Positions 2,555 to 44,135 of a stretch of 64,000 bases of DNA are shown here, one piece after another (the stretch's first letter is position 1; every line of letters begins with the position of its first letter). The notes beneath the pieces are model-generated. The model was not told where the DNA came from, searched no databases, and saw nothing but the letters and a program-made list of their open reading frames with translations. The stretch is from Candidatus Aerophobetes bacterium Ae_b3b (lineage in GTDB: Bacteria > Aerophobota > Aerophobia > Aerophobales > AE-B3A): the NCBI GenBank assembly GCA_005223085.1, contig NJBP01000005.1, positions 4,364-68,363 of the forward strand, read 5' to 3'. A program made the position numbers and the translations under genes.

Positions 2555-3286
2555 ATGGCCAAAATTTCAGTGATTTTACCAACCTACAACGAAAAAGGAA
2601 ACATAGTGAAGCTCATAGAGAAGATCTTCAGCAACTTACCTGAAGATATCGAGATAATTGTGGTTGATGACGATTCTCCGGATGGGACCTGGAAGGTGGT
2701 AGAAAACATCAGCAAAAGAGATGGCAGAGTAAAATTAGTCAGAAGAATTAACCAACGGGGTTTAACGAGTGCTATTACCCAGGGAATTTCCTCATCTAAA
2801 GGACAAATAGTTGTTTGGATGGATGGTGATTTCTCTATGCCTCCAGACGTTCTTCCTCGACTGGTGGGAGAAATAGGTGCTTTTGATATTGTAGTTGGCT
2901 CACGCTATGTTAAGGGTGGAAAGGATATGAGATCTTCGCGTTTTAGAGTCCTGATCAGTAAGGTATTTGATACACTTGCTCAGGTATTTCTCCAGGTGCC
3001 GGTCAGGGATCTTACTACCGGTTTTGTATCGGCCAAAAAAGAAGTCTTTAATACAGTTAGTATATCGGGAGAGTATGGGGAGTATTGTGTAGATTTTCTG
3101 TACCGGGCTGTAAAACAAGGATTCAAAGTAAAGGAGATCCCATACGTATGTCTACCCAGATTGACAGGGCAAACCAAGACCAACCCCAATATTTTTAAAC
3201 TCATCCGACACGGATGCATATATATATGGACAGTCCTGAAATTAAGGTTCTCTAGACATAGTTTATCTACTAAAAGGAGAGGTTAG
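2555..3286 (+). CDS. GT2 glycosyltransferase, polyprenyl-phosphate mannose synthase-like
   Basis: 243 residues. GT-A fold signatures are ISVILPTYNEKGNI at the N-terminus, VVDDDSPDGTW (nucleotide binding) and WMDGDFSMPP (the acidic D-x-D-type metal site), followed by VVGSRYVKGG. This is the DPM1-like pattern: transfer of a sugar from a nucleotide donor to polyprenyl phosphate on the cytoplasmic side. The short length means there is no C-terminal membrane or GtrA domain, so it is the soluble single-domain form. GGAGG lies about 14 bases upstream of the ATG. Lying between two GT-C paralogues, it plausibly supplies their lipid-linked donor. Confidence 0.8.
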   Translation: MAKISVILPTYNEKGNIVKLIEKIFSNLPEDIEIIVVDDDSPDGTWKVVENISKRDGRVKLVRRINQRGLTSAITQGISSSKGQIVVWMDGDFSMPPDVLPRLVGEIGAFDIVVGSRYVKGGKDMRSSRFRVLISKVFDTLAQVFLQVPVRDLTTGFVSAKKEVFNTVSISGEYGEYCVDFLYRAVKQGFKVKEIPYVCLPRLTGQTKTNPNIFKLIRHGCIYIWTVLKLRFSRHSLSTKRRG

Positions 3287-3290
3287 TCGA

Positions 3291-4487
3291 ATGATCAAAA
3301 AGATCGAGCTAAATTTGAAAGAGTTAGGAGATTTGGCGAAGATAATTCCCGGTCCAGAGCCAAGATTAAGAGTCTCACCAACTCTGGGCAGGATCATCCC
3401 CGTTTGCGAGCCAAAATTGGATGGCAACGAATCTACATACGTGGCCAGATGTCTGGAGACAAACTGGATTTCCTCTACCGGAAATAATATTGAGCAATTT
3501 GAAAAAAAATTCGCCAGATGTTGTGGGACCAGATATGGAATATCCTGCACTAGTGGAACTACCGCTTTACACTTAGCTTTAGTCACCCTGGGTATTGGAA
3601 AAGGAGATGAGGTCATCATACCAACATTTACTATGATCGCTACGGCTAACGCGGTTACCTATACAGGCGCAACACCTGTTCTCGTCGACGCAGAGCCTGA
3701 TACCTGGAATATAGATACAGAACAAATTGAAGAGAAGATAACCGAAAGAACCAGGGCCGTAATAGTGGTTCATACCTATGGTCATCCGGCAGATATGGAT
3801 AAGATCCTGAGTATAGCAAAAAAATATCATTTATATGTGGTAGAAGATGCGGCTGAAGCTCACGGAGCTGAGTACAAGGGAAAAAAAATAGGAAGCATCG
3901 GGAATATTGCCTGCTTCAGTTTCTATGCTAACAAGATTATCACCACCGGGGAAGGTGGTATGCTTACCACTAATGATAAGAAGATAGCTGAAGTAGCAAA
4001 AGAACTCAGAAGTCATGCATTTTCAAAAGAGAGACATTTCTGGCACCAGTATATTGGTTACAACTACCGCATGACCAATCTCCAGGCAGCTATCGGTCTT
4101 GCACAGGTGGAAAGATTTGATGAATTTGTCCAGTTGAGAATAGAACACGCCAGGTTATATAATTCTATGTTGAAAGGGATAAAAGGGATAACCCTTCCTC
4201 CTGAAACCAAGGATGTAAAGAACGTTTATTGGATGTATTCAATTCTGGTAGAAGATGAGCTTGGCATTAGTAGAGATGAGCTCAGAGGGAGGCTGGCAGA
4301 AAGAGGGGTAGAGACCCGGACATTTTTCATCCCCATGCACCTGCAGCCGATTTATTTCCGCAGATACCCTCAAAGGTTTCCCATAGCTGAGGAACTATGC
4401 CGAAAGGGAATGTATCTTCCCTCCGCTTCCAGTCTAACAGAGAAAGAGATTAATTACGTTGTGAAATCGATAATATCTGTGATCTAA
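3291..4487 (+). CDS. DegT/DnrJ/EryC1 sugar aminotransferase, perosamine-synthase-like
   Basis: 398 residues, PLP-dependent. Motifs in order are SGTTALHLALVTLG, then VVEDAAEAHGAEYKGKKIGS, then SFYANKIITTGEGGM containing the Schiff-base lysine, then YNYRMTNLQAAIG. The combination, especially WNIDTEQIEEKI and VVHTYGHPADMD, is closest to GDP-perosamine synthases, which aminate GDP-4-keto-6-deoxymannose. About 30 residues precede the usual start region (IIPVCEPKL). The start ATG follows AGGAGAGG, which supports the longer N-terminus. It begins 4 bases after the preceding GT2 and ends 4 bases before the next GT, so it is part of one operon. No GDP-mannose dehydratase is visible here. Confidence 0.78.
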   Translation: MIKKIELNLKELGDLAKIIPGPEPRLRVSPTLGRIIPVCEPKLDGNESTYVARCLETNWISSTGNNIEQFEKKFARCCGTRYGISCTSGTTALHLALVTLGIGKGDEVIIPTFTMIATANAVTYTGATPVLVDAEPDTWNIDTEQIEEKITERTRAVIVVHTYGHPADMDKILSIAKKYHLYVVEDAAEAHGAEYKGKKIGSIGNIACFSFYANKIITTGEGGMLTTNDKKIAEVAKELRSHAFSKERHFWHQYIGYNYRMTNLQAAIGLAQVERFDEFVQLRIEHARLYNSMLKGIKGITLPPETKDVKNVYWMYSILVEDELGISRDELRGRLAERGVETRTFFIPMHLQPIYFRRYPQRFPIAEELCRKGMYLPSASSLTEKEINYVVKSIISVI

Positions 4488-20559: not shown

Positions 20560-21123
20560 ATGAGGGTATTTATAGCGGTAGAGATTTCTGACTCCATCAG
20601 GAGCACGATAGCTCAGATTCAAGGTAAGCTTAGAGGAACAGAAGATAAAATTAAATGGGTGGATCCATCTTTAATTCATCTTACCCTAAAGTTTTTAGGG
20701 GAAGTAAGAAAAGAGAGACTGGGAGCGGTAATTGAGGTGGCACAAAAAATAGCTCCCAAGTTTTCTCCTTTCTTTATGGAAGTTAAAAGAGTGGGTGCTT
20801 TTCCTACTTCCTCTTCTCCCAGAGTTATATGGCTGGGAGTGGATAGGGGGAGCACTAATCTGCAAAGACTAGCTAGCGAGCTGGAAAACCATCTAGCAAA
20901 GGATGGGTTTTCTAAAGAAAAGAAGAAGTGGACTCCCCACCTAACTCTCGGCAGGGTGAAATCGTTAGTAGAACCACAGAAATTAAGTGGTCTTATCTTA
21001 GGAGAAAAAGAGGTTGTGGCAGGAGAGATGGAGGTAAAGGAGATCAGCGTAATTGAGAGTCGCCTCACTCCCAGTGGACCAATTTATACTGTTTTAGAGC
21101 GAATCAGGCTAAAGGGAATGTAG
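20560..21123 (+). CDS. thpR: RNA 2',3'-cyclic phosphodiesterase (LigT/ThpR)
   Basis: 187 residues, the usual length. Two H-x-T/S-x motifs, HLTLKFLGEV near residue 47 and HLTLGRVKSL near residue 127, form the 2H phosphoesterase active site; RVFIAVEI opens the protein as is typical. It opens 2',3'-cyclic phosphate RNA ends. A TTGACA at 20511 with a poor TAGGGT 16 bases on may be its promoter. It lies two bases-worth of operon logic upstream of recA, a common neighbour in many bacteria, but the structured element separates them here. Confidence 0.9.
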   Translation: MRVFIAVEISDSIRSTIAQIQGKLRGTEDKIKWVDPSLIHLTLKFLGEVRKERLGAVIEVAQKIAPKFSPFFMEVKRVGAFPTSSSPRVIWLGVDRGSTNLQRLASELENHLAKDGFSKEKKKWTPHLTLGRVKSLVEPQKLSGLILGEKEVVAGEMEVKEISVIESRLTPSGPIYTVLERIRLKGM

Positions 21124-21213
21124 GATATAAAAAGTACAAAGTTGAGAGATCGGACCATTTGCTAAGATTCTGAGACCCTTGAGAGTAGCAGGAAAATATT
21201 AGCATTCAGGAGA

Positions 21214-21427
21214 TTTATACGCGTATCGAGGGACTTTGCCCGAAGGAGCCTTATATCAGCCACCTTAACGAGTCTTCGAGTTAAGGAAGAAGAAAGACGT
21301 GATGTCTGAGGAGCGGAGCGAGGAGTTTCACGTCTTTCCCGAGACGAGAAGACGAGCAGAAACAATCGAAAGTCGATATACAGCGACGAAGGGGAACAGT
21401 CCCGAGATATCCTTGAGGAGGATAGAT
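21214..21427 (+). ncRNA. Structured 5' leader element, copy 1, upstream of recA
   Basis: Shared with 30424-30674. Conserved parts in order: TTTATAC (21214-21220); TCGAGGGAC (21226-21234), which can pair with the tail GTCCCGAGA (21399-21407) around tandem G-A mismatches; hairpin CCTTAAC/GTTAAGG (21263-21269 with 21280-21286); 10-bp hairpin AAAGACGTGA/TCACGTCTTT (21293-21302 with 21328-21337) whose loop is almost unchanged between copies; and TATACAGCGACG (21377-21388). The tail runs directly into the recA ribosome site GAGGAGG (21415-21421). An open frame crosses part of it, but its codons are not conserved between copies. A cis-regulatory RNA is the best reading; I match it to no riboswitch class that I know. 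Confidence 0.6.
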
Positions 21428-22462
21428 ATGAGAGAAGAGAAGATGAAAGCTCTGGATATAGCCAGGCAGCAGATAGAGCGCCAATTTGGCAAAGGATCAC
21501 TTATGCGCCTGGGGGAAAGAGCGGCCAGGATGGATGTGGATGTAATTCCCACAGGGAATATTGCCGTGGACGCGGCTCTGGGTATAGGAGGGCTTCCCCG
21601 GGGAAGAGTAGTGGAGATATTCGGTCCTGAAGGGGGTGGTAAAACTACTCTGGCTTTGCATGCTGCTGCTGAAGCTCAAAAAATGGATGGAGTAGTTGCT
21701 TTTATTGATGCGGAGCACGCCTTAGATCCTACCTATGCAAAAAATTTGGGGGTGGATATGGAAAACCTTCTCATCTCCCAGCCTGACTCTGGAGAGGAGG
21801 CTCTGGAGATAGCTGAACTTTTAGTACGCAGTAATGCCATAGATTTGATTATCATAGACTCAGTGGCTGCTCTGGTTCCCCGGGCCGAGCTGGAAGGGGA
21901 TATGGGTGATTCCCACGTTGGGCTTCAGGCAAGGCTTATGTCTCAAGCACTTCGTAAGTTAACCGGAGCGATAAGCAATTCTAAGACCTGTACCATCTTT
22001 GTCAATCAATTGAGAATGAAGATTGGAGTAATGTTTGGCAATCCAGAGGTAACTCCAGGAGGTCGGGCTCTCAAGTTTTATGCCAGCATAAGAATAGATA
22101 TTCGAAGGAAAGCATCTTTGACCAAGGGGGATGTGCAGATAGGCAACAGAACCAAAATCACTGTGGTTAAGAACAAGCTCGCTCCACCTTTCAGGAAAGC
22201 TGAATTTGACCTACTTTTTGGAGAGGGGATGTCTCAGGAGGGAAGCATTTTGGATCTGGGAGAAGATCTTGGCATTCTTAAAAAATCGGGAAGCTGGTAT
22301 TCTTACGGAGATACCCAATTGGGGCAGGGAAAGGAAAGTGCCCGAGAGTTTCTTAAGGATGTAAAAAATGCTACTCTGAGGAACGAAATTGAGCAAAAAA
22401 TTGGGGGAAAATTGGGTTTTATAAGAAAAAAGAAGGAGACGGTTAAGGCTAAGGTTGAGTAA
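21428..22462 (+). CDS. recA: Recombinase RecA
   Basis: 344 residues from the ATG at 21428, which follows GAGGAGG. The frame extends upstream into the leader element, but that extension is not RecA-like. Walker A is GPEGGGKTT where most RecA proteins have GPESSGKTT; Walker B is [10 protein letters not shown]; loop L1 is [16 protein letters not shown], and [17 protein letters not shown] precedes loop L2. It binds single-stranded DNA, promotes strand exchange and activates the SOS response. No LexA box was recognised. The structured leader is the notable regulatory feature. Confidence 0.97.
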
Positions 22463-24289: not shown

Positions 24290-24433
24290 ATGAACTCCCG
24301 TTCAGAATCAGAAAGTGCAAGAATAGCTGTCTTTGACTCAGGTGTAGGAGGACTTACTGTTGTTTCGGAAATAATGAAGCTTCTTCCTGGGGAGGGGAAG
24401 AGTCCCGAGATATTTCTTGATTTGGAAGGATAA
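24290..24433 (+). pseudogene. murI: Truncated glutamate racemase, N-terminal fragment only
   Basis: The 47-codon frame starts ATG at 24290. Its residues 10-35 (ARIAVFDSGVGGLTVV then SEIMKLLPGE) are an unmistakable MurI N-terminus with the catalytic-loop aspartate and serine. After GE the normal sequence stops, and the frame continues through the 19-bp repeat (24402-24420) to a stop at 24433. About 80% of the enzyme, including both catalytic cysteines, is missing. A full-length murI would have to exist elsewhere, since D-glutamate is needed for peptidoglycan. The breakpoint coincides with the repeat. Confidence 0.85.
24402..24420 (+). repeat. Dispersed 19-bp repeat at the murI breakpoint
   Basis: An exact copy of GTCCCGAGATATTTCTTGA. 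It is preceded by GGGGAAGA, similar to the bases before the copies at 21399 and 33500, so the conserved unit is slightly longer than 19 bases. The similarity to MurI ends just before it. Confidence 0.85.
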
Positions 24434-24452: not shown

Positions 24453-25130
24453 ATGTTTCAGGAGAAAAACTCAGTGATTTTCCAGGGAAAAGAATTTGCT
24501 TTTACCATTTTATGCAGCATCTTCATCGGGTCACTGGTGATTTCCGAGGTATTGGCCAGTAAAATTGTTGCTCTAGGGGAGATCTACGTCCCGGCGGGAG
24601 TAGTTGCCTACGCGGTAACTTTTGCCATGACCGATACCATTGAAGAAATCTGGGGGAAGAGGTATGCCAGAGCCGTAGTGATTGGCGGACTTCTAACACT
24701 GGGTGTGGTTCTTTTTCTAATGTGGCTTGCCGTAATCTTGCCTTCTGCTCCATTCTGGAAAGAAGAAAAAGCATTTACGCGTATTTTAGGAATAAAGGCA
24801 GGAGCAATCAGAATAACTATGGCTAGCATAGTTGCTTATTTTGTCAGCCAGTACCACGATGTCTGGGCCTTTAATTTTTGGAGACGGATCACCAGAGGAC
24901 GATGGCTCTGGCTGCGTAATAACGCTTCCACCCTTGTTTCTCAGGCTATAGATACTTCTCTGTTTATATCTTTAGCCTTCTATGGAGTTGTTCCCGTTGT
25001 GCCTTTAATTCTAGGACAGTATTTCGTTAAATTGTGTATTGCTCTCCTTGACACTCCCCTGGTCTATCTCCTCGTCTACTGTGTGAGAGGGAAAACCACA
25101 GTGACCGAAGAGTCCCGCGGTGTTTCTTGA
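24453..25130 (+). CDS. Queuosine-precursor transporter family (YhhQ/Vut_1)
   Basis: 225 residues with about six membrane segments. The DUF165/YhhQ signature is clear: VISEVLASKIVALGEIYVPAG, then AVTFAMTDTIEEIWGKRYAR near the second helix, and SQYHDVWAFNFWRR with LRNNASTLVSQAIDTSLF. The family imports queuosine precursors (preQ0/preQ1). It is flanked by direct copies of the 19-bp repeat, exact upstream at 24402 and 16/19 downstream at 25112, the latter forming its last codons and stop. No queuosine synthesis gene or preQ1 riboswitch was seen beside it. Confidence 0.85.
   Translation: MFQEKNSVIFQGKEFAFTILCSIFIGSLVISEVLASKIVALGEIYVPAGVVAYAVTFAMTDTIEEIWGKRYARAVVIGGLLTLGVVLFLMWLAVILPSAPFWKEEKAFTRILGIKAGAIRITMASIVAYFVSQYHDVWAFNFWRRITRGRWLWLRNNASTLVSQAIDTSLFISLAFYGVVPVVPLILGQYFVKLCIALLDTPLVYLLVYCVRGKTTVTEESRGVS
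25112..25130 (+). repeat. Degenerate copy of the 19-bp repeat forming the 3' end of the YhhQ gene
   Basis: GTCCCGCGGTGTTTCTTGA matches the consensus at 16 of 19 positions. Its terminal TGA is the YhhQ stop codon, and its TTGA plus the next two bases form the -35 box of the promoter at 25127. Confidence 0.65.
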
Positions 25131-28343: not shown

Positions 28344-28372
28344 TATTAAGTACTAAGCATTAAGTACTAAGT

Positions 28373-28915
28373 GGTAGCCGCAGGCTTCAGCCTGCGTAGA
28401 GAAATGATAAACAGAAATGTTAGAGAAAAGAAACACCGGTTACCTCTGCACTGCTACCTGGGGCAGGTAAGGGTAACCTTCACTCTTTGTATTGAAGACA
28501 AAAGACCCTTTTTTGTGGAAAAGGCAATAGTGGATAAGTTCATAGAAATCCTAAGAGAAGCGAAGGAAAAGTATAATTGTAAAAATTGGGTATATATGTT
28601 CATGCCAGATCATTTGCACGTCGTTAATGAAGGTATTTCAGACAGTTCTGATTTATGGAAAATGATGAATTTTTTCAAACAAAAGACTGGTTTTTGGCTA
28701 TCGCGGAATAAAAAAGGAACGAAATGGCAAAAAGATTTTTATGACCATGTTCATCGGAAAGAAGATGATTTAAAGAAGCACATAATCTACATTCTGGATA
28801 ATCCAGTAAGAAAAGGGTTAGTCTCTGATTGGAAAGATTATCCTTCCAAAGGGTCACTGGATTTTAGCTTGGAAGATATTATTTCATGAAACGCAGGATA
28901 AATCCTGCGGCTACC
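28373..28915 (+). mobile_element. REP-flanked RAYT unit inserted between ribBA and ribH
   Basis: The left palindrome, starting GGTAGCCGCAGGCTTC at 28373-28396, and the right palindrome, ending CCTGCGGCTACC at 28892-28915, are inverted relative to each other and enclose a Y1-transposase gene. The same GGTAG(C/T)CGC palindromes occur inside the MITEs at 921 and 35216 and alone at 62252. Two direct copies of ATTAAGTACTAAG lie just upstream of the left REP. Confidence 0.8.
28404..28889 (+). CDS. REP-associated tyrosine transposase (RAYT, Y1 HUH family)
   Basis: 161 residues from the ATG at 28404. The HUH motif is MPDHLHVV (histidines 70 and 72). [20 protein letters not shown] with candidate catalytic Tyr113, and [12 protein letters not shown], are signatures of RAYT proteins of the IS200/IS605 Y1 superfamily. 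These are usually single-copy, domesticated-looking genes that process REP hairpins. The frame is intact. Matching REPs lie immediately on both sides. It lies between ribBA and ribH on the same strand, so it may be co-transcribed with the riboflavin genes. Confidence 0.88.
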
Positions 28916-28966: not shown

Positions 28967-29434
28967 ATGAAAAATTATAAAGGGAAGATAAGGGGTAAAG
29001 GACTAAGATTTGGAATAATAGTTTCACGTTTTAATGAGTTTGTCACTGAGAAACTTTTGGAAGGAGCCCTGGACGCACTCGAGAGGCATGAGGTGGAGGA
29101 AGAAAATATTGAGATTATTTGGGTTCCTGGTTCTTTTGAAATCTCGGCTCTAGCCTCAAAGCTAGCCAAAAAGGAAAGATTTAATGCTCTGATCTGCTTG
29201 GGGGCTATTATTCGGGGTGAGACACCTCATTTTGAGCTGATATCATCTCAAGTAGCTCGAGGAATCGCCACCTTAGCTTTAAAGGAAGAAATCCCCGTTA
29301 TTTTTGGAGTCATTACTGCCGATACTTTGGAGCAGGCAATCGAGAGAGCAGGTACTAAAGCAGGAAACCGAGGTTGGAACGCAGCCGTGTCTGCTATGGA
29401 AATGGTGGATCTTTATCAACAGGTGCAGAAATAG
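28967..29434 (+). CDS. ribH: 6,7-dimethyl-8-ribityllumazine synthase
   Basis: 155 residues from the ATG at 28967, which follows GGGAGGAAG; the frame is open farther upstream to 28886, but that part crosses the right REP. Motifs: [46 protein letters not shown] with the catalytic His, and [13 protein letters not shown]. It condenses the RibA/RibD-derived pyrimidine with DHBP; the product feeds RibE. A RAYT unit now separates it from ribBA. No ribD is present in the window. Confidence 0.95.
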
Positions 29435-30339
29435 CTAGAGGAAATACAAAGAGGGCCAACACCAAGATCTGGACAGTTAAGAAGAGCCTCAAGTGGGCTA
29501 CCCGGTATTTGGAAGAAAGAGGAATCGAGAATCCCTGCCTGACCTCGGAACTTCTACTGAGTCAACTTTTACAGAAGAAACGTTTCCATCTTTATCTTGA
29601 CGGGGATCGAGATCTTCCTGGTTCAGTTCGTACCCTTTTCCTAAATTTGGTCAAAAAGCGTGGTCAATATGTCCCCCTATCTTATCTTACCGGCAGCCAA
29701 GATTTCATGGGTTACAGTTTCAAGGTGAATCCGAGGGTCTACATACCCCGTCCTGAGACCGAGATATTAGTAGAAAAGGTTCTTGAAGTAACTAGTTTGC
29801 CAAGAGGAAGAGAATTTATTGCCGTTGATCTGGGAACGGGCTGTGGAAATATTGCCATAACTTTAGCCAAGCAATTAGAAAGATCAAGGATCTGGGCGGT
29901 CGATATTTCACCCGAGTCTTTGGAAGTCGCCAGATGCAATGCCCAATTGCATTATGTGGATAAAAAGGTTGAGTTTTTAAGGGGAGATTTATTTACTCCT
30001 CTTATCAGGCTAGGCTTAGAGAGAAGAGTTGATTTAGTAATTTCCAATCCTCCCTATGTAGCCTCCACTCAGATGAAGAATTTGCCACCTGAGGTAAGAA
30101 AAGAACCGAAGGTGGCTCTGGAAGGCGGGGAAGAAGGATTGAGTGTGCATAGAAGAATTATCTGGCAAGCTCCTCGTTTTTTGAATAGAGGAGGTCTTCT
30201 TGCTCTAGAGATTGGATGCGGTCAGGTCAAGATTATAAAGGATTTAATTTCGGCCCAACCTCAGCTTTTACCTCCTAAGATTGTCTCGGATTACCAAGGA
30301 AAGGAACGGGTAGTGCTTACAAGGAAAAGAAGTGATTAG
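29374..30339 (+). CDS. prmC: Release-factor glutamine methyltransferase
   Basis: The conserved protein begins around [18 protein letters not shown]; the NPPY motif is [12 protein letters not shown], with [16 protein letters not shown] as the SAM site and [12 protein letters not shown] before it. It N5-methylates the GGQ glutamine of RF1/RF2. The start is uncertain: the only standard start in frame is a TTG at 29374, inside ribH (61-base overlap), giving 321 residues, about 30 more than usual. A rarer ATA or ATC start after the ribH stop is possible. It is likely co-transcribed with ribH. prfA is not adjacent, unlike in many genomes. Confidence 0.85.
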
Positions 30340-30423
30340 TGGTCAGGGTTTAATGAAAAACCAAGAGAGTTACCTAAGGCCTTGATTTCTTGATCAATAG
30401 TTTCTTTTCTTGAGATTTAGGAA

Positions 30424-30674
30424 TTTATACACTTGTCGAAAGACATTTTCTGGTCCGAAGGAGGCGCAGCCGGAGCCTTATAGGAGCTACCTTAACGAAG
30501 CTTCGAGTTGAGGAAAAAGAAAGACGTGATGTCTGAGGAGCAGAGCGACGAGTTTCACGTCTTTCCCGGCCGTTAAGGTGCCGCAGGCAACGAGAAGCTG
30601 AGCAGAAATAATAAAAGGCTACTATACAGCGACGGAAGAAAATTGTCCTGAGACATTTTTTTGAGGAGTAAATT
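30424..30674 (+). ncRNA. Structured 5' leader element, copy 2, upstream of mrdA
   Basis: It follows the same order as the recA copy: TTTATAC (30424-30430), TCGAAAGAC (30436-30444), hairpin CCTTAAC/GTTGAGG (30490-30496 with 30507-30513), hairpin AAAGACGTGA/TCACGTCTTT (30520-30529 with 30555-30564), TATACAGCGACG (30623-30634) and tail GTCCTGAGA (30645-30653), then the ribosome site GAGGAG (30663-30668). Relative to copy 1 one helix base changes from A-T to G-T, and one position of the closing helix changes from G-C to A-T. Two extra blocks, at about 30461-30475 and 30566-30590, could pair with each other as an added helix. Confidence 0.6.
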
Positions 30675-32441
30675 TTGGTTCCAGTAAGAGGCAAAAGAAA
30701 GAGATTTGAGACAAGGATTAAGATTTTATGGGTTGTCATAGTCTGTAGTTTTCTCATTCTTCTGGCAAGGATAGCCTGGCTGCAATTAATAGAAGGAGAA
30801 AGATATCTTCGTATTTCTAAGAATTCTCGCCTTCAACTCCTTCCTCTTCCTTGTACCCGAGGTCTCATTTTGGATAGAAATGGTAAGAAGTTAACTCACA
30901 ATGAGGCCTCATTTTCAGTAGGGGTAATTCCATCCAATGTAAGCAATCCAGACCATCTTCTTGATCGTCTAGCTATTATCTTAAAGCTAGATAAAAAGGC
31001 TATTCTGGAAAGAATTCGCCGGGCCCCCAATCCTTTTAAACCTGTGGTGTTGAAAAAAAATGTGGGTATGTCTACCGTGACTTTTCTCCTGGAGAGAGAG
31101 GAAGAGTTTCCCGGAGTTGTCATTATTGCCCAACCAGTACGTACTTATCTTTACGGCGGACTCGCCTCTCATCTTCTTGGTCACCTGGGAGAGGTGAACC
31201 AAGCCGAGCTTGCCCTTAGTTCTGGCTATGGCATCGAGTTGGGAGATCTGGTGGGGAAGATGGGAGTAGAAAAGGTATGCAATAGATATCTACAAGGAGA
31301 AAAGGGAGGTAAACAAATAGAAGTAGATGCTCATGGCCGCGCCTTAAGAACAATTTCCGAGAAAGATCCTGTCCCAGGTCATAGTCTCTATTTAACCATA
31401 GATCTTCGAATGCAGGAGATTGCTGAAAAAGAGTTGGGAGAAAGGAAAGGGGTGGTATTGATTGGTGATCCATATACCGGAGGGATCTTTGCTTTGGTGA
31501 GTTACCCTGGCTTTGATCCAAATCTTTTTTCCTGGGGTATATCAGAAAGTGAGTGGAATAGATTAAGAGATGAACCTTTGCATCCCCTGGAGAATCGAGC
31601 TACCAGGGGAGAATATCCTCTTGGTTCCGCTATTAAAGTCATAACTGCTTCAGCGGCTCTGGAGGAGGGAATTATTAGCAAGGAGGATACTTTCTTTTGT
31701 GGAGGGAATTTTACCATTGGTAACCGGGTGTTTAAGGGATGGAAAGAAGAAGGTCATGGGGAAATAAATCTGGAAGAGGCTATTATTCATTCCTGCAATG
31801 TCTACTTTTATCAACTGGGCTTGCGCCTGGGAGTAAAACGAATAATCCGATACGCTAGTCTCTTTGGTTTAGGGAAGCCCACCGGTATAGATCTTGGGTC
31901 TGAGAAGCCAGGGTTTTTACCCACTCGCGATTGGAAGAAGAAACACAAAGGGGAGGCCTGGTATGGAGGGGACACGGTCAATCTCTCCATTGGACAGGGG
32001 TATATCTTAGTTACCCCGGTTCAAATGCTTAAAGTCATCAGCGTTATAGCCAATGGAGGATATCTGATTAGGCCCTATTTGATAAAGAAAATAGTAAGTC
32101 CGAGAGGTGATCTTATTAAGGAATTTCAACCCCCAAAGATGGAAAGAGTTCCTCTTTCTTCAGCTACACTCAATTTTCTAAGAAGATCCTTAAGGGGCGT
32201 AGTGCGGGAAGGGACAGGGTGGCGGGCAGAAAGTAAAACAGTGGAAATTTCCGGGAAAACCGGTACGGCAGAGCTATCCGAAGGCGAGAAACCCCATAAT
32301 TGGTTCATAGGCTATGCTTCATCTACTCATCTCCGTCTGGCTATCGTGGTTTTGGTAGAAAATCGAGAAGAAGATATACAGATTGCTCCCCAGATTGCCG
32401 GAAAAATTTTTTCCCAGATCTTCGAAAAAAATGTACCCTGA
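30675..32441 (+). CDS. mrdA: Penicillin-binding protein 2 (elongation transpeptidase)
   Basis: 588 residues, TTG start 6 bases after GAGGAG. One N-terminal membrane segment (ILWVVIVCSFLILLARIAWL), a PBP dimer domain, then the transpeptidase: active-site S-x-x-K in YPLGSAIKVITAS, S-x-N in HSCNVYFYQLG and K-T-G in SGKTGTAELSE. It cross-links peptidoglycan during elongation with RodA, whose gene overlaps its end. The usual mreBCD genes are not upstream; the structured leader lies there instead. The YPLGSAIK variant of YPPGSTFK is atypical but keeps the catalytic Ser and Lys. Confidence 0.94.
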   Translation: MVPVRGKRKRFETRIKILWVVIVCSFLILLARIAWLQLIEGERYLRISKNSRLQLLPLPCTRGLILDRNGKKLTHNEASFSVGVIPSNVSNPDHLLDRLAIILKLDKKAILERIRRAPNPFKPVVLKKNVGMSTVTFLLEREEEFPGVVIIAQPVRTYLYGGLASHLLGHLGEVNQAELALSSGYGIELGDLVGKMGVEKVCNRYLQGEKGGKQIEVDAHGRALRTISEKDPVPGHSLYLTIDLRMQEIAEKELGERKGVVLIGDPYTGGIFALVSYPGFDPNLFSWGISESEWNRLRDEPLHPLENRATRGEYPLGSAIKVITASAALEEGIISKEDTFFCGGNFTIGNRVFKGWKEEGHGEINLEEAIIHSCNVYFYQLGLRLGVKRIIRYASLFGLGKPTGIDLGSEKPGFLPTRDWKKKHKGEAWYGGDTVNLSIGQGYILVTPVQMLKVISVIANGGYLIRPYLIKKIVSPRGDLIKEFQPPKMERVPLSSATLNFLRRSLRGVVREGTGWRAESKTVEISGKTGTAELSEGEKPHNWFIGYASSTHLRLAIVVLVENREEDIQIAPQIAGKIFSQIFEKNVP

Positions 32442-33542: not shown

Positions 33543-33636
33543 GAATGCACCTGAGGTATAGAATTTCAATAATTTCTCTGAATTGTTATCAAGTAAACCT
33601 TGGCAATCGAGATATCAGAAAAAAAAGAGGGGAGCA

Positions 33637-33711
33637 GGCTCGACTTGCTCGAGCGAAGCGAGAGTCGGCTTTGCCGATCGAGCCGTCGAGGGGGGATATT
33701 TCCCCCCTCGA
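33637..33711 (+). promoter_or_regulatory. Multi-hairpin cassette in the leuC leader
   Basis: GGCTCGA (33637-33643) pairs with TCGAGCC (33678-33684) and encloses two hairpins: CTTGC/GCGAAG, and TCGGC-TTT-GCCGA (33665-33677). One base later TCGAGGGGGGA (33686-33696) pairs perfectly with TCCCCCCTCGA (33701-33711) over a TATT loop. The last stem ends 21 bases before the likely leuC start. There is no T-run, and no T-box sequence was recognised. It could be a translation-control structure or a mobile palindromic repeat. Confidence 0.6.
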
Positions 33712-33732
33712 GTATCTTGGTGGGGGATGGGA

Positions 33733-43776: not shown

Positions 43777-44135
43777 TGGTGGAGGCGGAGGGAATCGAAC
43801 CCTCGTCCAGAGACAAAACCATCGGAACATCTACATATTTAGTCTACATTTTGAATTCATCTTTCCTCCCTCCTGTAGACGAGATGAAGGAAAGACTAGC
43901 AGCTCTCGAGTATTCGCTTTGTTTCCCATCTGCCTGGAAACAAAGCTAGCTCTACTTTCTCACGCCTCTTTTACTCCGTAGAGCAAAAGTAAGGAGACGT
44001 AGCTACTTAGTTGTAGCTAAAAGCTAACGTTGGATTAGCGTTTAAGTTTAGTTGCCGGATGGATTTACAAGGTGTCCGGCGACCCTTGCTATGCCATTCC
44101 GATTTTTCTATCCCTGTCGAAACCGTTTCGCCCCC
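43777..44135 (-). ncRNA. ssrA: tmRNA
   Basis: 359 nt. The 5' end GGGGGCG, followed by AAACGGTTTCGACAGGG, pairs with the 3' end CGCCTCC before ACCA, giving the tRNA-like acceptor with one G-U; GAGGGTTCGATTCCCTC is the T arm. The tag frame most likely resumes at GCT (44037-44039) and runs to TAA at 44007-44009, which lies in the 6-base loop of a hairpin (TAGCTAC/GTAGCTA), as in helix 5 of other tmRNAs. The predicted tag ANPTLAFSYN lacks the usual terminal Ala-Ala. It starts 11 bases after smpB. Confidence 0.93.

Follow-up and report, generated by a model that had tools for sequence, protein, structure and literature searches.

Why do recA and mrdA of Candidatus Aerophobetes bacterium Ae_b3b carry the same structured sequence just upstream of their ribosome sites? 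We took up this question in a 64,000-nt stretch of that genome (GCA_005223085.1, contig NJBP01000005.1, positions 4,364 to 68,363 of the forward strand; hereafter "the window"), in the whole 2.04-Mb, 86-contig assembly from which it comes (G000), and in a set of 17 genomes, G000 included, from the phylum Candidatus Aerophobota. All 17 are draft metagenome assemblies in which contig ends often fall within copies of the element described here; the recA and mrdA copies are themselves far from the ends of their 68-kb contig. A preliminary description of the locus had proposed that ordered, paired blocks common to the two upstream regions form a cis-regulatory RNA of recA and mrdA. Every block is present where it was reported, at 21214-21427 and 30424-30674, but the element is longer than those limits. 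The first copy spans 21178-21416 on the plus strand, between thpR/ligT (20560-21123) and recA (start at 21428), and is bordered by CTTGA at both ends (21178-21182 and 21412-21416). The second spans 30409-30664, also on the plus strand, between prmC (29374-30339) and mrdA (TTG start at 30675), with CTTGA at 30409 as its left border and TTTGA ending at 30664 as its right. Both stop just before the ribosome sites. The mrdA copy has two additional blocks (GGCGCAGCC... and GGCCGTTAAGGTGCCGCAGGC), which are optional modules also present elsewhere in the family. The sequence is thus structured, as proposed, but it is not a dedicated regulator of these two genes: they carry two copies of a dispersed element.

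How far is the element dispersed? A DNA search of G000 with the recA copy returned 53 matching pieces, many of them full length at 94-95% identity (E down to 6e-90). The covariance-model search of relatives that the preliminary description had suggested bore fruit: with a model built from 32 copies, 29 copies were found in G000 and 14 of the 17 genomes were positive, with 1-52 copies each, while the three genomes of one family (G010-G012) had none. A pattern scan of named genomes matched only Candidatus Aerophobetes CSMAG_2676, and a search of the literature for repeats or transposable elements in Aerophobetes found no report. Copies are about 70-390 bp long, a spread that results from inserted modules, deletions, and exchanged interiors, and none contains an open reading frame. 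Numerous short copies, dispersed and devoid of a transposase gene, are the pattern of miniature inverted-repeat transposable elements (MITEs) and BOX-like repeats.

Is the element a conserved feature of recA and mrdA? We located recA in 16 genomes and mrdA in 17, and outside G000 no genome with readable upstream sequence has a copy before either gene; most of these regions show a short, normal gene junction. The element-free recA sites include that of G003, the second genome of the window's genus (80% complete), whose RecA is 94% identical. At the G003 mrdA site, the prmC stop codon is missing, and an element may have been lost there together with the end of prmC. Because the copies are absent from the same sites elsewhere, both are lineage-specific insertions, and a conserved 5' untranslated region (UTR) position before the same genes in relatives was not found. 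Nor do the downstream genes, as called with a simple ORF picker, share a theme. Besides recA and mrdA, more than 20 unrelated genes follow copies in G000, among them genes for a peptidase, YicC, a pyruvate-type oxidoreductase, a Mur ligase, a LacI regulator, a sugar kinase, DnaB, a Clp ATPase, MiaA, an LptA-like protein, PurH, and a penicillin-binding protein. We therefore rejected a functional regulon; the copies are scattered insertions. Scattered copies with terminal repeats were the pattern that the preliminary description had set against its own proposal, and this pattern is found in part: the scatter is there, while the flanks hold only the short CTTGA and no long terminal repeats.

The element nonetheless has a real fold, with compensatory changes far above controls. 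An alignment of 32 copies from 12 genomes supports 47 pairs, among them those of a pseudoknot; a foot helix with tandem G-A mismatches joins both ends and encloses a second helix, a short hairpin, and a long hairpin. Changes that preserve pairing, noted at the outset between the recA and mrdA copies, are thus seen over 12 genomes. Paired cells make up 89.2% of the 47-pair structure, compared with 36-45% when partners are slid; two-sided changes occur in 157 cells against a shuffled mean of 60, a value reached in 0 of 500 shuffles; and the covariation score is 0.274 against 0.146—figures favored by the fold having been drawn from the sequences on which it is scored, with the slid controls and the copies of G009, unused in drawing it, as counterweight. 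The foot and second helices also emerge from an independent RNAalifold prediction.

In the recA copy, all parts of the fold lie on the plus strand. The foot helix, P1, pairs 21225-21241 (ATC-GA-GGGACT-TTGCCC) with 21391-21408 (GGGGAACAGTCCC-GA-GAT) and was scored for covariation as helices 1 and 2; its strands are inverted (TATCGAGGGACTTTCCCC / GGGGAAGAGTCCCGAGATA), the left one about 45 bp inside the element's left end. P2 (helix 3) joins 21252-21260 (TATATC..GC) to a partner at about 21372-21380 (GTCGATATA). The P3 hairpin CCTTAAC/GTTAAGG (helix 4; 21263-21286) has few changes and covaries weakly on its own, and it presents GTCTTC in its loop at 21272-21277. This loop pairs with GAAGAC at 21348-21353 to form the pseudoknot (helix 5), which is 98.3% paired, with two-sided changes at four of its six pairs (GTCTTC/GAAGAC, AGCTTC/GAAGCT, GGTCTC/GAGACC). 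The G009 copies keep the pseudoknot with other sequence (AGTCTTCC with GGAGACT). G-U pairs outnumber A-C mismatches in the pseudoknot by 12 to 1, which indicates that the plus strand is the one that folds. P4 (helix 6; 21293-21337) is a long hairpin, AAAGACGTGA/TCACGTCTTT, with an inner purine-rich loop; its variants AAAGACGTG, AAAGACTTG, AAAAATATA, and AAAGATTTA all pair.

Where does the element insert? Copies lie immediately 5' of CTTGA(C), most often as CTTGA|C, with a second CTTGA at the left end. Among the loci fetched for these counts, TTGAC occurs in the 14-nt stretch around the right end of 39 of 75 copies, compared with 0.9% of random 14-mers, and TTGA in 51 of 75, compared with 6%; copies of the divergent family f2, in G009, also end at CTTGAC. 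Copy-free sites show insertion at recA, mrdA, and loci L018, L021, L027, and L030. The clearest case is L027, where the empty site (CTTCTTGACTTTG) has a single CTTGA and the filled site (GTCTTGA[element]TTCTTGACTTTG) has one on each side of the element. This clean empty site, with CTTGA(C) on the right, is the fixed, short, one-sided target without long duplication expected of an IS200/IS605 derivative. The left side is messier at several sites: at L021, where G003 has the empty CTGAC-TATCC-TTGACGG and the filled site reads CTGA-CTTGA[element]CTTGA-CGTAA, the left flank differs by 5 nt. Some empty G003 sites hold a few bases like the element's tail (TATCC, TCTC) and could be excision products rather than sites that were never occupied.

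The right-hand TTGAC is a -35 box wherever a -10 box follows. A good TATAAT lies 16-18 nt beyond the right-end motif in 22 of 79 copies, compared with about one at other offsets. Does the element bring this promoter with it? Five element-free sites in G003 already have the right-hand TTGAC (the second element of L013, the first of L021, and L018, L027, and L030); the L013 site reads TCTCTTGACAAG, and TTGACA is present at the empty sites of L013, L018, and L030. The promoter is thus independent of the element, whose insertion leaves the -35 box intact, and we rejected the idea that the element makes promoters through its right end.

The interior is interchangeable. At three G003 loci (L086, L088, L090), unrelated sequence is framed by the element's two ends and its foot helix, and the site L012 has the full interior in G000 and another in G003. 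The ends and foot helix therefore seem sufficient for movement, without the interior. In L038, L086, L088, L090, and L093, other palindromic simple repeats (GTGAATAGTGAATAG..., ACGTGAGACGTAAG...) occupy its place, which suggests that hairpins nested in hairpins are turned over. Short forms of 40-70 bp were considered as ancestral operators, a view rejected in favor of deletion products formed between the TCCC repeats found at the P1 base. One right-end remnant (GGGGAAGAGTCCCGAGATATTTCTTGA) lies in the window at 24391-24418, plus strand, upstream of a gene at 24453; G003 retains a longer right end at the equivalent site and has another hairpin there. An apparent short fragment of the start of murI (glutamate racemase), read by eye at 24305-24418, runs into this remnant.

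We consider it probable, at roughly 0.78, that the sequence is a phylum-specific, nonautonomous mobile element that inserts in an IS200/IS605-like manner and carries a covarying, RNA-like interior. Such an element, about 110-360 bp long, would insert at CTTGA, most often at CTTGA|C, without duplication beyond the motif and with the right-hand TTGA(C) preserved, so that a downstream promoter would stay intact where this TTGAC is the -35 box. Its mobility would require the ends and the P1 foot hairpin, and it would presumably be moved in trans by a single-strand, IS200/IS605-like enzyme or by another target-specific one; we favor the former because the target is short and one-sided, long duplications are absent, and there is a foot hairpin. 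The interior, a pseudoknotted fold apparently read on the plus strand, is most likely transcribed as RNA, either from outside promoters or inside operons: the element would be cotranscribed in thpR-recA and prmC-mrdA, and its fold may act as RNA. A local effect on the recA and mrdA messages is possible and would be a by-product; such an effect has been reported for cotranscribed pneumococcal repeats (PMC3049150). A plain MITE or a passive hairpin repeat would need neither covariation of this depth nor a pseudoknot, and both features hint at a role for the RNA. More speculatively, and less likely than not, the interior could belong to a new class of functional, mobile, pseudoknotted noncoding RNA (such as a ribozyme, an RNA that guides its own insertion, or a protector of host transcripts), confined to the Aerophobota and borne on a promoter-sparing element that targets CTTGA(C), a motif that is often a -35 box.

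Could the RNA instead serve the host? A structured RNA with a real host function, acting in cis or in trans (a riboswitch-like sensor or a small RNA), might have been carried, as a portable regulator, to promoters all over the genome. Its strong covariation and pseudoknot persist over a whole order, conserved purine-rich loops remain unpaired (CGAAGGAGC, GAGCAGAAAYAAT, AGCGACGG), the recA and mrdA copies abut the ribosome site, and the downstream gene runs in the same sense as the element in 67 of 80 copies. However, ordinary intergenic TTGAC away from elements, among the fetched loci, is already followed by a same-sense gene 100 times to 41, and a -10 box is equally frequent there (35/141, compared with 22/79 for the element; P = 0.63). 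This control explains most of the element's apparent link with gene starts and leaves a weak excess in orientation (67:13 against 100:41; P = 0.035). Many copies, moreover, precede the -35 box and so fall outside the transcript instead of within a 5' UTR, which also counts against a leader role in general; one and the same site may have its interior deleted or exchanged (L012 in G000 and G003); and a common theme is missing from the downstream genes. A host function of this kind is therefore unlikely.

HEARO is a mobile, mostly ORF-less structured RNA found at a fixed short motif, and the element resembles both it and the omegaRNA of IscB in these respects. Is it, then, the guide RNA of an IscB- or TnpB-type nuclease, with CTTGA(C) as the target-adjacent motif? 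A mobile structured RNA placed precisely beside a fixed short motif on one side would fit, as would the TTGAT target of ISDra2, a member of the IS200/IS605 family (PMC2806898), and the RNA cargo that Group A IStrons add to IS200/IS605-type elements targeting TTGAT (PMC4227781). The searches, however, speak against it. At the gathering cutoff, Rfam gave no match to the element anywhere in the window, and six copies searched up to E 10 gave nothing relevant, neither HEARO nor an intron; no RRXRR (IscB/IsrB) protein exceeded the cutoff in any of the 17 genomes. With neither the RNA-family match nor the protein, we rejected membership of the HEARO/IscB omegaRNA class. Some genomes of the phylum do have Y1 transposase and TnpB genes, but no copy was found beside one and the ends of those elements differ; the resident TnpB elements have the right end CCCCGACTTTAGTCGTGGGGAGTGTCAA, and we likewise rejected a TnpB omegaRNA. 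A guide-RNA role is accordingly very improbable. Against the favored mobile-element reading, these searches linked no mobilizing enzyme to the copies, and neither Y1_Tnp nor TnpB was detected in G003 (80% complete), which contains copies; the possible excision products and the uneven left flanks described above weigh against it as well. The window has a single Y1 (IS200-like, RAYT-type) transposase gene at 28371-28889, tightly flanked by ribBA and ribH, with first codons that resemble a GTAG-type REP hairpin; the gene's only relative among the 17 genomes, 70% identical, is in G015. With its own REP-like start and its confinement to G000 and G015, this gene was rejected as a likely mobilizer. 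A structured leader devoted to the control of recA and mrdA is scarcely tenable: the shared structure and the position directly before both ribosome sites speak for it, but the element-free sites in every other genome with readable upstream sequence contradict it, and the diversity of downstream genes in G000 counts against it.

How does the element compare with known systems? Like BOX of Streptococcus pneumoniae (and RUP and SPRITE; PMC3049150), it is small, interspersed, modular, and intergenic, with a predicted RNA fold and an optional middle module. It differs in sequence and phylum, has its CTTGA(C) target instead of BOX ends, lies mostly upstream of same-sense genes whereas BOX is enriched between convergent genes, and is distinguished by a pseudoknot with deep compensatory change. 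With the IS200/IS605 family, such as ISDra2, and its short derivatives, it shares oriented insertion by a TTGA-type pentanucleotide, the lack of long target duplications, and a subterminal end hairpin; in contrast to them, its copies neither contain nor adjoin a transposase gene, its ends are unlike those of the TnpB elements in the same genome, and CTTGA stands on both its left and its right. No ends were found in common with a resident Y1 or TnpB element. The Group A IStrons likewise combine insertion after TTGAT-like sites with a cargo of structured RNA, but the present element is about one tenth the length of the described 1.9-kb IStron (PMC4227781), gave no Rfam match to a group I intron core up to E 10 in the copies searched, is closed by a helix joining both ends, and is not inside a gene in the loci examined. 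By analogy, the element would work like the BOX class and insert like an IS200/IS605 derivative, a likeness that falls short of demonstrated membership of either.

Small mobile repeats are common; a covarying, pseudoknotted, RNA-like fold across most sampled families of a phylum is unusual, as is insertion beside CTTGA(C) that leaves the -35 box intact. With this element one can test how a parasite avoids harming its host and whether a folded RNA plays a part in its movement. The case also cautions that a structured "leader" common to two important genes can have been inserted recently.

Several further features adjoin or resemble the element. A second free-standing family of structured repeats (GATATCAGAAAAAAGAGGGGAGCAGG[variable hairpins]CGTCGAGGGGGGATATTTCCCCCCTCGAGTATCTTG), which also ends at CTTG, is found in the window at 33621-33714 and recurs at L021 (8344-8408), L035 (3271-3360), L040, and L022; several copies of the main element enclose a module related to it. 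Classical REP/REPIN-like pairs (GTAGCCGCACCCTTTAGGGTGCG / CGCAGGCTAAAGCCTGCGACTAC) adjoin right-end remnants at L032 (about 3440-3500, minus strand) and L035 (about 3060-3130). One G000 copy (L013, 8411-8655) lies exactly at a break in synteny between G003 contigs C84 and C38, and copies may therefore promote rearrangement. A tmRNA gene at 43777-44135 on the minus strand is the window's sole Rfam match at the gathering cutoff.
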